From Medicago truncatula (taxonomy: Eukaryota; Streptophyta; Magnoliopsida; Fabales; Fabaceae), in NCBI RefSeq assembly GCF_003473485.1, contig NC_053042.1, positions 51,671,762 to 51,735,761 on the forward strand: a DNA stretch of 64,000 bases. The letters run 5' to 3'. Below, in pieces: positions 22,115 to 59,662 of this stretch. Positions within the stretch are counted from its first letter, which is position 1. Each line of letters starts with the position of its first letter. The position numbers and the translations under genes were made by a program. The notes under the pieces are model-generated. The model searched no databases and was not told the origin of the DNA. It saw only the letters and a list, made by a program, of their open reading frames with translations.

Positions 22115-22365
22115 TATGTGTTTGACATTGTTGTTGATATTATTTCTCTATTTTAGTTCAATATTCCAAGTTCCAACACCAAATGTTTCATTATATGCGC
22201 CTCACCGGTCATAACAATGGTTTTTCTTTTTACTGTTAGATCATAACTTAATGTTAAACGTCAATTACTTAAAACAAAAGTGGTTTTTCACGTAGCAGTT
22301 GGTAATTACTCACTAAACCATGAACAATTTTTTTAGAGATGATTTTAGCAGGGTTGTTTGCAATT

Positions 22366-22386
22366 TTTTTTTTTTTTTTTGAGGGA
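22366..22386 (-). mobile_element. Micro-retroposition scar (21 nt)
   Basis: Poly(T) followed by GAGGGA, between two perfect 19-bp copies of AGCAGGGTTGTTTGCAATT (22347-22365 and 22387-22405). Read on the minus strand, the insert is TCCCTC plus poly(A). Confidence 0.75.
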
Positions 22387-22984
22387 AGCAGGGTTGTTTG
22401 CAATTCTGTTAGGGTTGATTTTGAGGTAAAGAGTCGTTAAATTCAAAGGCTAAATTAACATATAGTTTGGTTTAGTTAGATTGCTTCAAAAAAATCTGAT
22501 TCCATAAGATCATACGTGGTTTATGTAGGATTGTTCATTTCATTTTTATCAACACATAATTATATGCCAACAAATTGCTTTCTACTATCTTAAATTCAGA
22601 TTAGGTATCACGTTATTGTTGTTGTATTTGATAGTCTTGCGATTCAAATTTTTTGATAAAAATAGAACCTACATTTTGATTTTGGTAAATTCATAAAGTC
22701 ACGGTGCCACCATGCAATTTAAAAAAAACTTAGGTTAGTTGCTTATGTAAAGTTGCCCTCAAATTAGTACTAGGAACACACCAAAAATATCGATCTGACA
22801 AACAACCAAATATACGCTAGATATGGTAAAATGTCTTTTTGTTGAATACAATGAATCAAGGTCAAATATGGAAAAAAATAAAAAATATAAAAAAAGGAAA
22901 TAAACTTGACAATTATTTTTTTTTAATTAATATATGTAAATATACTTTACTCTTTTTATTTTAAATAATATACTTTGCTCTTAT

Positions 22985-22991
22985 TATAAAA
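22985..22991 (+). promoter_or_regulatory. Putative TATA box of MRS2
   Basis: TATAAAA about 95 bp before the MRS2 ATG. Confidence 0.5.
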
Positions 22992-23084
22992 GGTAAAAGG
23001 TTTGTATCATATAAATTTATAAAAAATGTTACAACACTCACTTTAACATTTTCTCTTGGAACACTCTCTCTTTCATTGGAGAAG

Positions 23085-55596: not shown

Positions 55597-56101
55597 GAAG
55601 ACATTACTTTGCACAGATTGGATTGATTACATGTGTATTTTGAATCTGAGCACATAATGATTATTGTTCTTATAGTTTCTTTTTCTTGTTTGTTGTTTGC
55701 TTTTATGAAAATGAAGTTATGAACTAATGCTTCCAACTTTCATACAGCCTAATTCACAGGATTGGTCGGTTTATTTTCCTTTTGTGATATTTGTTACCTT
55801 TATAAGAAATTTCATTTGTTGCTAGCATTTGTATTTTGATGGATTTGTCTAATGTTGCTAGCATCTGTGTTTTGATGAATTTGTCTAATGTTCTGATGCA
55901 TGAATCTGATAATCACCACTACAAGAGCAGAGGCCTTCTAGTACTATTAAGCATTTTTAAGATGAATACATAGCAAATTTCACCTTATAGTACTTGTCTC
56001 ATCAACACATTTGTTTTAAAATGCACAAGACCGTAGTAACATTTAAGTGAAATTGGAGCACCCATCATCCAAAACTACCAATATTCTTTTTACAATAGAC
56101 A

Positions 56102-57128
56102 TTATGCAGCAACGTGAACATCATTCTCAAGCTGACTGTAGTCCCCCATTTAATTTCTTTAAAAAGTTGAATGTGATGATGTTTGCAATAGAGCTTTGTC
56201 TCATGTGATACAAAGTTTGATGAGCTTATAGTACAACCTCCATAGGTACATTTGAAGCAGCCTCTGTGATAGAGTGTACCATTAACCGTTACCTTTAGTA
56301 AATAGCAACAAGGATACTATTAAGCATTTATTATAGTTAGAAGGAAAAAGTGTAAAACAGTAAGTAAATGAATTTTTTTAGTATATTAGTTATACCCTCT
56401 CCGTGGGATACACAGTCTTTTTGCAACACATGCATTGTTTCTGTTGCCTAAGAAAGAACGCGTTTGCTAGTATCTTTGCATTCTGTTCATTTAAAATCAA
56501 GTTTGTCAAACTCTCACTCAAACAAACACTTAAAATTTTCACAAAGGGATGATTAGTTTACAAATTTAAAAGCGAGTTTTACCTTCAAAGCTTTTAATTT
56601 GTCCAGGCTTCCTGTTCTCTTGCAGAGTTGATCATAGTGTGGTCTGCAATGTAGAACCCCCTCAAAAGAACAGTGGTTGCTTAGCTGCAAATAGAGTTAC
56701 AACACATACACACTTTTGTAGGATCAGTTATTGAGTTTATTAATCCAATTTATTATCATCATTCAAGGAGAAAGCATTCCTATATAGAAATGGATGCGTA
56801 ATGTCCCTCCTTATCAATGTAAATATGTAAAATCTTCATCAGATCTCATTCATTTATTCTGTTATTCATTACGTATGTTCCCAAGGCATCGTTCAAGTGA
56901 TTGAGTGGTGACACTCGAAAGGGATTGAAAAGGGTGATCCAAGTTTCAAACTTTACTAACAACTAATATTTTTCTATAAAAAAGTGTATTTTTTTATTAC
57001 ATATGATATGCATACAAAATTTTACCTTGAGGGTATTCCGGCAATGGTGGCATCAGAAGCAGGGCTTATGATAAATTCGATCATCTGCAGTTAGCTTATC
57101 AACGTAATAAACCGTTCTGTCGTATGAT
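56102..57128 (-). pseudogene. LIM-domain protein (WLIM1-like) pseudogene
   Basis: Minus-strand remnants in the correct order of a plant two-LIM protein (actin-bundling and nuclear roles in WLIM/PLIM). 57026-57128: RTVYYVDKLTADDRIYHKPC, then CHHCRNTLK. 56583-56684: LSNHCSFEGVLHCRPHYDQL, CKRTGSLDK. 56396-56447: QQKQCMCCKKTVYPTER. 56102-56292: VTVNGTLYHRGCFKCTYGGC, CKHHHIQLFKE, then out of frame GDYSQLENDVHVAA and stop. Splice sites are preserved, so this is a DNA-level duplicate, not a processed copy. It is broken: TGA replaces the Arg codon of CFRCHHC, a frameshift lies near KEIKW, the first Cys pair is lost, and no start exon was found. The linker between the LIM domains is also missing. Confidence 0.85.
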
Positions 57129-58054
57129 CTGAAATATATGATGCGTTATTGAGTTGGAGTGAATTGCGGATGGAAAAAAATGAACAAGGTTTACATAGAA
57201 CTTAGATACATAGATTAATGCAGTGATGATTGACGAGTTGGCTATCTAACAATCATTTTGTCTGAGTTTCCAGTAAATCCTTAGTAAAATCCTTATTTAA
57301 CAATCTTGGGCATACCTTAATTTCAGTACGTTAACTATAAAGGATGATGATGATGCACTTTAAACCCCTCATTTTGGAGCATATGGGCATGGCCATCGTC
57401 GATACTAAATCCCAGTACATAGTTTTTCAATTATAATATATAATCTGGAGTCCTGACCATATTGGAAAAAATAATAGAAAACGACAATCAAACGAATACG
57501 ATAGGAAATACATTAATTCTGTTATTATGTGTGTGGTAGATAAAGGAAAGCAACACTACCAACAAAAAAAAAAAGTTGGTATTTTGGAAGGGGTTTTAAA
57601 CTTTCACAAAATCCAGTCGAACCAATGTTTGAATTTGAGGTTGTAGATGTATTTACATTTAGTGTCGGTACGTCTCAAATAAGATTATTTCATGTGAACG
57701 GGATTCAACTTTAACAAAATATGGTGAACTAGTGTTTGAAGTTGTAGTTGAATAAGTATTTAGATTTAATGTCCGACAAGTTTCAAATAAGATTACTCCA
57801 TGAAAAAGAAATTGTTGGATCTATTTATAAGTTCATAAATTGACTTTATAATGGTAGGATATTAGAACCAGACATATAATCTTGCTAATAAATAAGAAGA
57901 GAAGGCTTGATTCATATCACTCACTTAAGTCAAAAACAAATAAAATTGGCCATCAGTGATTAGAAGTGGTGACAATACGAGGTGAAAACTTCATTTTTTT
58001 TCCCATTAAGTAATCGTGAAGTAACATAATTACAAATGGAAGCATATCACCACA
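57129..58054. other. Intergenic with about 110-bp tandem duplication
   Basis: No gene. Two diverged copies at about 57591-57700 and 57700-57808 share TTTxAACTTTxACAAAATxxxG, GTGTTTGAA, GTTGTAG, TATTTAxATTTA and TCAAATAAGATTA. Confidence 0.6.
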
Positions 58055-58126
58055 GGGCATTTGGTCTAGTGGTATGATTCTCGCTTTGGGTGCGAGAGGT
58101 CCGGAGTTCGATTCTCCGAATGCCCC
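58055..58126 (+). tRNA. tRNA-Pro(TGG), copy 1
   Basis: 72-nt cloverleaf: acceptor GGGCATT/AATGCCC, anticodon loop TTTGGGT in stem CTCGC/GCGAG, T-arm CGGAG-TTCGATT-CTCCG. Internal A and B boxes are intact. Followed by T6, a Pol III terminator. Confidence 0.97.
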
Positions 58127-59662
58127 TTTTTTAATTCTTTTTATTATTTTTACAAACTAAAACTCTCAATTTTGTGTATGTTTGTTTACATGTGTGTGAA
58201 TTTAATTTATTGAAACGGTAGCGTTCGCAAAAATTGCGGCGATTCAAAGTTCAAACCATCCTCACCATGAATCCAAACAACTTTTGATTTGTCAATGTTT
58301 TATCAGGTAATTCATCTTCTCCAATTCCATTCCCTTACTATATTCTTCTTCCTTAACTTCACTTTTTCACTTCACAGTCACATGCATGCATCTTCCATTG
58401 CCGTAAATTTCTAACTCTTTCTTAATCTCACTATATGTAATTCTAAATTGGAATATAGTAGTAATAATATGCTTTGCTGTATTCAATGACTTTGATGCCC
58501 TTCAACTGTTTGTTGAAATGTTTCTTCCAACTGGTTATAAGTGGTGAAAATCTCTTTTCTCTTTTCTTTTTCTGATATAATAATTGGTGAGAATCTTTGA
58601 CCTTACAAGTTGAGAGCAATGTCTGAGTTCCAAAATTAAAATGCTCAAAATACATAATAGAGTTTTTACACTGTCAATCAATCATAACACGATTATATTA
58701 GTAGAAACGTTTGACTTTTATCATGACCACTTTGAAAGTCATACTCAGTGTAATTTTTTTTTTTTTTATAGTGACAGTGTAATTCTTTTTTGGGTCTTGC
58801 TAACCATTGCATCAGGGCAATGGTGGGCAATGGTTAAGGTAACCAAAATTAGTAGCTTTACATTGGAAACAACAATTTATAAACTTTTTACAAGTTGGCT
58901 TGACCACTTTTCTTCTTTTTCCAACACAAAATTTCTATTTTTGTTCCTTTATCTAATGCCCCAAGGGCAATGATTAGCATTTCCCTTCTTTTTTATTGTG
59001 ACAGTGCATGAAAATTAAACTAAAATAAAAAACCTTCAAAGGTTTGACGAGTGAGCTATGTAGGATTTCCAACTGCTGAAATATCACACATAATCACAAT
59101 ATGTTTGTCAGTTTTCATTGTCTTTGATGAATTCAGTTTTTTACTGTAAGAAACAAAGAGATCCAATGTCATAAAAAACTGAGGTTATTGCAGCTAACAT
59201 CTGAGTTTTCTTCCTTTTATCAAAATTAAAGAGAAACTTTTAGAAAAACAACTTCTTAGCTTTGACAGAAGCCCCAATTTCAGTATATATAACTAAGACA
59301 AGAAAAGTACGGTAAGCACACTTGTTAAGGCCTAGAAATTACCCCTTCCCGAGGGAATGGGAGCATAGGCAGAAATCCAAGGGTAGTATTATCCTCAGTA
59401 ATTTTTGCTTGCATTGCTTTATCAATGTGACTTCTGATGCATAGTTTGATTTGCCAATTGCATATATCTCACAATAGAATGTTGTTAACATTCTCTCATC
59501 AGAATACATAGAGATTTTAATGGATATGGATGTTAGAGGGAAATATTGTCATTGACTTGTTTAGTGATAACATGTTGTGAAAATAAGAGGTATAAACTTT
59601 ATTTTTCCAACTAAAATAATTGTCCCAAATAACATATTTACAAACTAATACTTTTCATAGCA
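58127..59662. other. Spacer between tRNA copies 1 and 2
   Basis: No gene seen. It contains one micro-insertion (58756). AT-rich. Confidence 0.5.
58756..58774 (-). mobile_element. Micro-retroposition scar (19 nt)
   Basis: Poly(T) plus ATAGTGA between 10-bp copies of CAGTGTAATT (58746-58755, 58775-58784). Confidence 0.55.

Follow-up and report, generated by a model that had tools for sequence, protein, structure and literature searches.

The 64-kb window analysed here, a stretch of the Medicago truncatula genome (C1:51671762-51735761), contains a series of short direct repeats that enclose nothing but a word of a few nucleotides and a run of A or, on the opposite strand, of T. The initial annotation listed 12 such places, which we refer to as micro-insertions, and direct repeats around a short word and an A/T run were found at 12 of 12. 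The enclosed length proved to be 12-21 nt between the two copies of the duplication, instead of the 13-24 nt first given, and among the perfect repeats announced as 19, 19 and 16 bp, the two of 19 bp were recovered while those of 16 bp number two rather than one. The micro-insertions very probably stem from the machinery of long interspersed nuclear elements (LINEs), through target-primed reverse transcription (TPRT) that ended mostly 3-10 nt past the poly(A) tail.

On the minus strand of the window, the micro-insertion at 22347..22405 displays a perfect 19-bp duplication (22347-22365 and 22387-22405) around TCCCTC and A15, the As at the boundary being common to the repeat. That at 28843..28894 features a 20-bp duplication with two mismatches (copies from 28843 and 28875), CTTTC and an A-run. 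Perfect duplications of 12 bp (40047..40084, copies from 40047 and 40073) and 15 bp (40524..40571, copies from 40524 and 40557) enclose TTCTT with A9 and TTCTTGCTTC with A8, respectively. On the plus strand, perfect duplications of 16 bp flank TTCTC and A15 at 33577..33628 (copies from 33577 and 33613) and CCTTAC and A8 at 46837..46882 (46837 and 46867), a perfect one of 19 bp flanks CTTGTTC and an interrupted A-run at 46894..46950 (46894 and 46932), and perfect ones of 12 and 11 bp flank CCTTCC and A15 at 40463..40507 (40463 and 40496) and GTACCTTC followed by A10 and CTA at 48323..48365 (48323 and 48355). The member at 46728..46770 (plus strand; 46728 and 46759) is weak, with CTTGAC and an A-run inside a 12-bp duplication with one mismatch (8 exact). 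Two sites are possible micro-insertions: 35846..35892 (plus strand; 17-bp duplication with one mismatch from 35846 and 35876; TTTTAT and A7), which is A/T-rich with a weak word, and 58746..58784 (minus strand; perfect 10-bp duplication from 58746 and 58775; TCACTAT and A12), a weak member. A further weak candidate lies at 15099..15137 on the plus strand, where GTCCAT, A7 and TA stand within a perfect but A-rich 12-bp duplication (15099 and 15126). One more candidate, absent from the earlier list, was noticed at 48262-48312, with an A/T-rich 16-bp duplication (one mismatch) around CAATTACT, A9 and CT; its word differs from those of the other sites.

The sample comprised the window and 20 stretches of 10 kb, taken at fixed coordinates on eight contigs and labelled with L-numbers, for a total of 264 kb out of an assembly of 429.9 Mb in 42 contigs; the sampling of the 10-kb stretches was systematic rather than random. 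Each A-run of at least 7 nt on either strand (577 in the sample) was considered and the best repeat between its upstream and downstream flanks was scored. The scan requires an uninterrupted A-run adjoining the repeat, and the sites 46913 and 48334, good by eye, were missed because their A-run is interrupted or does not touch the repeat. The chance level was obtained from 20 permutations pairing flanks from different A-runs of similar length. With a repeat score of at least 10 and a word of at most 15 nt, 42 of the 577 A-runs were retained against a mean of 1.0 in the permutations, and stricter cut-offs gave 27 against 0.25 (score of at least 12) and 17 against 0.05 (at least 14). A shuffle control, run with permuted flanks in place of shuffled sequence, thus did not reproduce the pattern. 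At least six of the 42 resemble other repeats or lack a real word (33951 and 50360 in the window; L012 5246 and 5824; L022 6173; L027 9390). The sites at 33951 and 50360 are homologous repeats with about 90% identity over 209 bp and GTTTTAGC-A ends, and, although the scan scored them as micro-insertions, they seem to be portions of a longer repeat family.

Words of 3-15 nt lie on the 5' side of the A-run in 39 cases against six in the mirror arrangement, read on the backward sequence. Genome-wide, the pattern YYYYYC-A11 occurs 7,960 times against 1,607 for its reverse, a count that takes in longer copies of LINEs and of short interspersed nuclear elements (SINEs). When L001, L003 and L008 were added to the sample, 18 sites with Y4C and at least A9 were found, seven of which score as micro-insertions, whereas the mirror pattern gave one site and no micro-insertion. 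Direct repeats around short filler also arise in double-strand-break repair, and patch-mediated repair was reportedly described in rice by Vaughn and Bennetzen in 2014. The sites could accordingly be tandem duplications with filler left by such repair or by replication slippage, the A-run being filler itself or the product of later slippage, and empty sites by themselves would fit this origin. Repair or slippage predicts no strand rule, however, while the A-run adjoins the second copy of the duplication at 39:6 and the genome-wide count is likewise oriented; moreover, the same words of 6-8 nt recur beside A-runs (307:1 and 783:28 against control) and match retroposon tails. We regard this origin as very improbable.

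The distribution of body lengths was established by searching upstream to 6.4 kb with a repeat score of at least 11; decayed duplications or copies longer than 6.4 kb escape this search, which is no census. Bodies of 0-2, 3-5, 6-8, 9-11, 12-14 and 15-19 nt amounted to 2, 8, 16, 3, 1 and 2 cases, and those of 20-29, 30-49, 50-99, 100-199 and 200-399 nt to 4, 2, 7, 6 and 0 cases, with a chance expectation of 0.5 or less in each bin as far as 199 nt; at 400 nt and above, chance and paralogous repeats account for much of the count. Four longer cases end, by eye, in a retroposon-like tail (122 nt in L009, 1,467 nt in L010, 723 nt in L021 and 194 nt in L025). Words below 3 nt represent three of the 42 short cases, compared with about a third under a constant stopping rate (a geometric model being assumed). 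The peak at 3-8 nt is hard to take as the tail of ordinary truncation.

The duplications measure 10-22 bp in the 39 cases, selected at a score of at least 10, and begin with AA in 26 of them against 0.30 expected. Empty paralogous sites with a single target copy, searched in paralogous copies only, were found for three insertions. At L018:4956, TAATTTAGCTTCTTC-A12 stands between two copies of AATTGTCATGATAT, and the paralog in the window (49241-49520, plus strand) harbors a single AATTGTCATGATAT and no insert. The insert at L018:2145 is present in L092, L093 and L094 and missing in L091, while L097 does not align at this position and L095 and L096 change to other DNA just past the word. The third, at 40057 of the window (site 40047..40084), is absent in six repeat copies (L098-L101, L104 and L105), calls that rest on about 25 nt of homology past the site, L102 and L103 having no homology there. 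Two further insertions, L018:1237 and L018:1343, are present in each of the eight copies that align and are therefore older than the spread of that repeat; the stretch around a weak one, L018:2981, has full-length matches in many copies, in which the insert seems present from the match lengths. A search for spanning paralogs of the window sites 40475, 40539, 46740, 46853 and 46913 returned none, and the region 46500-47200 showed no full paralog, its matches being itself and an 87-nt piece at 75%. As a separate observation, the switch to unrelated DNA in L095 and L096 occurs right behind TTCTTCAA, as if the A-run of the micro-insertion were a recombination point.

LINE 3' ends were collected adjoining zf-RVT matches. 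One group of LINEs features a strong terminal stem-loop, and another a very short 3' untranslated region (UTR) together with a pyrimidine end that varies between copies, AAGCTTCTTTCCGTC and TTTCTTTCTCTC being examples. In a first matching of 39 words to 33 distinct 10-nt endings of 41 loci, the mean matching suffix was 3.05, against 2.55 for shuffled words (p 0.008) and 2.67 for control A-runs. A second matching, of 31 words to 49 distinct endings among 53 LINE ends, gave 3.39 against 2.83 for shuffled words (p 0.013) and 2.82 for control A-runs (p 0.008); for matches of at least 4, 5 and 6 nt in this second set, p was 0.22, 0.13 and 0.09 against shuffled words and 0.017, 0.03 and 0.047 against control A-runs. 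Since the match of the whole set is modest, single words were counted genome-wide instead.

The word TCCCTC followed by A10 occurs at 783 sites genome-wide, against 28 for its reversed control. Of the first 20 listed sites, 18 are micro-insertions, 16 of them with a score of at least 10, while mismatched pairs give 0.35 per 20 at a score of at least 8; the remaining two consist of a weak 34-nt case (L183) and a site with nothing (L177), so that micro-insertions stand to longer copies at 18 to at most one. The duplications, selected at a score of at least 8, measure 11-20 bp, and 10 of the 18 begin with AA. The words read TCCCTC in nine cases, CCCTC preceded by T in three and 7-10 nt in six, and 12 of them start at the same base; of the six longer words, only TTTCCCTC keeps to the LINE ends throughout, and the other five diverge 6 or 7 nt from the tail. 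A LINE-end pattern ending in CCCTC-A7 was found at 16 sites (reversed control, 0), and among the five shown, four have the motif of the short-3'-UTR LINEs and TTTCCCTC. A template for the TCCCTC words thus seems to exist in the form of LINE-like ends TTTCCCTC-An, assigned to LINEs by their end motif only.

These sites bear on whether a longer TPRT cDNA could have been trimmed by host nucleases, so that the enzyme's footprint on the hybrid, rather than the point at which synthesis halted, set the final length. Such trimming would likewise yield very short inserts of similar size; the footprint should nonetheless fix the summed length of word and A-run, and hence produce a negative correlation between the two. 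None was seen, either in the 39 sampled cases (rho 0.08, p 0.64) or in the TCCCTC set (rho 0.26, p 0.31, n=18), where the word does not shorten as the A-run lengthens, although the test is weak because the length of an A-run shifts once it has been inserted. In the TCCCTC set, words span 5-10 nt (standard deviation 1.5) and A-runs 10-23 nt (standard deviation 3.3); the steadier length of the word speaks for a stop that depends on the template rather than for a cDNA of fixed length, and we consider trimming unlikely.

The second tail examined, GCTTCTTC-A9, is present at 307 sites genome-wide against one for its reversed control, and TTTTAGCTTCTTC-A9 at 56 sites against none. Forty of the first 41 listed GCTTCTTC sites were read (L126-L165), the remaining one sitting in L009. 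Seven of the 40 are micro-insertions (score of at least 9; L142 with 9 bp only). Their words of 7-10 nt equal the tail, apart from an extra A in one of them, and read GCTTCTTC in four cases and CTTCTTC, AGCTTCTTC and AAGCTTCTTC in one case each. Several 5' junctions share 1-2 nt with the template. Bodies of 30-46 nt occur at three sites and none of 11-29 nt was found, while no duplication was seen within 50 nt at the other 30, of which, by eye, 20 carry one repeated body and eight another, L133 and L158 being ambiguous. Given that deletions are common in plant genomes, longer LINE or SINE insertions might later have been cut down by internal deletion. The word abuts the first target copy without any remnant in the 18 TCCCTC cases, though, and bodies of 11-29 nt are lacking in the 40 GCTTCTTC sites, which makes internal deletion the least credible origin of all those weighed here.

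The commoner GCTTCTTC body resembles an element in L025 (L025:6373-6567) that has tRNA-like promoter boxes by eye, and was on this ground taken as a tRNA-type SINE; an Rfam search of the SINE-like element in L025 gave no match. A 15-nt word, at L018:4956, matches the SINE-like body. The second body was taken as a LINE on the strength of one copy in L012 (minus strand, its tail near 3263) that carries the variant TTTTAGCCTCTTC-A15; a frame with zf-RVT (E 1.6e-12) stops about 150 nt upstream. It was further observed that the SINE-like family and the LINE both end in TTTAGCTTCTTC-An, the SINE-like relative in L025 having another tail; the two are a candidate SINE/LINE partner pair.

The orientation, the duplications, the empty sites and the retroposon words lead to TPRT as the origin of the micro-insertions. 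That it halted almost at once, as the initial annotation proposed, is supported by the permuted flanks, the 39:6 orientation, the three empty sites and the two enriched tail words. Judging from the anatomy of the sites, an A-rich target would be nicked and its 3' end would serve as primer at the poly(A) of LINE or SINE RNA. The reverse transcriptase would then copy the tail and the last few bases of the template before halting; the length peak is observed, and synthesis ending at one fixed template base is suggested. Cutting of the second strand some 10-20 bp away, followed by repair joining the short cDNA, would leave the duplication, the word, the A-run and the second copy of the duplication. 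The halt may be due to a roadblock formed by a 3'-terminal stem-loop or by bound ORF2 protein, early second-strand cutting being another candidate. It is possible, although we lean somewhat towards the contrary, that LINE TPRT in this genome very commonly, perhaps most commonly, ends in arrest at one set base of the template, 5-9 nt past the poly(A). The passage from tail into body would then be a discrete early checkpoint of TPRT that left tens of thousands of uniform micro-insertions, exceeding body-bearing copies tens to one for some LINE tails.

Several results weigh against an early arrest of LINE-driven TPRT. The orientation bias is absent outside words of 3-15 nt (9 against 9 above 15 nt, 3 against 3 below 3 nt), and orientation is therefore confined to that class. 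T is not preferred directly upstream of the duplication in the 39 cases, in which the TT/AAAA endonuclease preference was examined, and the empty sites all come from paralogous repeats of the same genome. The TCCCTC pattern hides stops below about 5 nt, so that the search itself accounts in part for the apparently sharp 5' end. Among the 40 GCTTCTTC sites, longer copies (28) outnumber micro-insertions (7), which consequently do not exceed visible copies in every family. As for the stop signal, the LINE group whose ends match has a weak hairpin adjoining its tail (-1.6 to -2.9 kcal/mol, and none in one of four). The strong 3' hairpin of one LINE group was set aside as an unproven general stop signal: its tail TTTRCCTT-A9 occurs 32 times against 19 for the control, and with part of the stem three times. 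Finally, the resemblance of the words to LINE 3' ends put forward in the initial annotation holds for the two words tested genome-wide, whereas the words as a set match only modestly and most window words are without a proven source family.

This last point leaves room for TPRT templates that are mostly polyadenylated mRNAs, mobilised in trans and shortened to a few nucleotides. Plant mRNA poly(A) sites often consist of a pyrimidine followed by A, many sampled words have no source, and the LINE-end match is modest. For certain plant L1 lineages, a relaxed mode of recognition that relies on poly(A) has been proposed (PMC3747384) and would also fit. Both words tested genome-wide are nevertheless recurrent tails with LINE- or SINE-like copies, and 783 copies of one hexamer before A10 are hardly expected from scattered mRNA ends. 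We thus judge mRNA templates to be improbable as the main source, and LINE or SINE RNA to be the preferred template.

Truncated and abortive TPRT products are already known; the sources consulted were PMC3747384, PMC2912911, PMC12633430 and PMC10191854. Like 5'-truncated L1/LINE insertions, the micro-insertions have a poly(A) that borders the second target copy, an A-rich start to duplications of some 10-20 bp, and a retroposon 3' end as body; truncated copies are 100-1,000 bp long according to PMC3747384, whereas the bodies here are mostly 3-10 nt, in a narrow peak. Abortive L1 retrotransposition healed by end joining (PMC2912911) has in common an interrupted TPRT resolved by host repair, and several 5' junctions here have 1-2 nt in common with the template, but it was invoked for strongly altered human L1 target sites, while the duplications here have the usual length and the products make up a large and uniform class. 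SINEs with the tail of a partner LINE are comparable in that TTTAGCTTCTTC-An is common to SINE-like and LINE-like copies and the micro-insertions hold its last 7-10 nt; the latter differ by having no promoter or body of their own beyond 3-15 nt.

At a score of at least 10 and with words of 3-15 nt, the window yielded 13 cases and the stretches taken at fixed coordinates, 200 kb together, yielded 26. Extrapolation from the latter gives about 56,000 copies genome-wide (Poisson interval 36,500-81,900), an estimate that false members lower and missed interrupted A-runs raise. A search of the literature (titles and abstracts among the matches listed, with subscription journals mostly uncovered) found no paper describing such micro-insertions; what is new here is their abundance and their narrow length peak. 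Repeat annotation probably overlooks them on account of their shortness, a single insertion amounting to no more than a few template bases with an A-run and a short duplication. If the proposed origin is correct, tens of thousands of retrotransposition events are probably absent from repeat annotation, and attempts at transposition are more frequent than the numbers of longer copies imply. The micro-insertions would supply small insertions, A/T tracts and short direct duplications, and the tail-to-body step of TPRT would become countable, as each of them marks a stop of synthesis.

Some further features of the LINEs were observed. In the stem-loop group (L031, L034, L041, L046, L061, L072, L073, L075, L078 and L089), the sequence of the stem differs between copies and the hairpin ends 6-10 nt before the poly(A). 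These ten copies resemble the monocot L1s with a stringent 3' hairpin (Ohshima 2013, PMC3747384), except that their TTTRCCTT tail, the one tested, is barely enriched before A-runs here (32:19). In the short-3'-UTR group, a weak stem is suggestive: 76.9% of cells are paired (8 of 500 shuffles as high) and the covariation score was reached by 8 of 500, while two-sided changes affect two of four pairs (120 of 500) and three cells (56 of 500), with four further pair types (120 of 500). Lastly, several zf-RVT matches fall within open frames some 1,370-1,400 codons in length, for example at C4:5433412-5433666 and C3:35514904-35515149, and such long frames suggest recent LINE activity.

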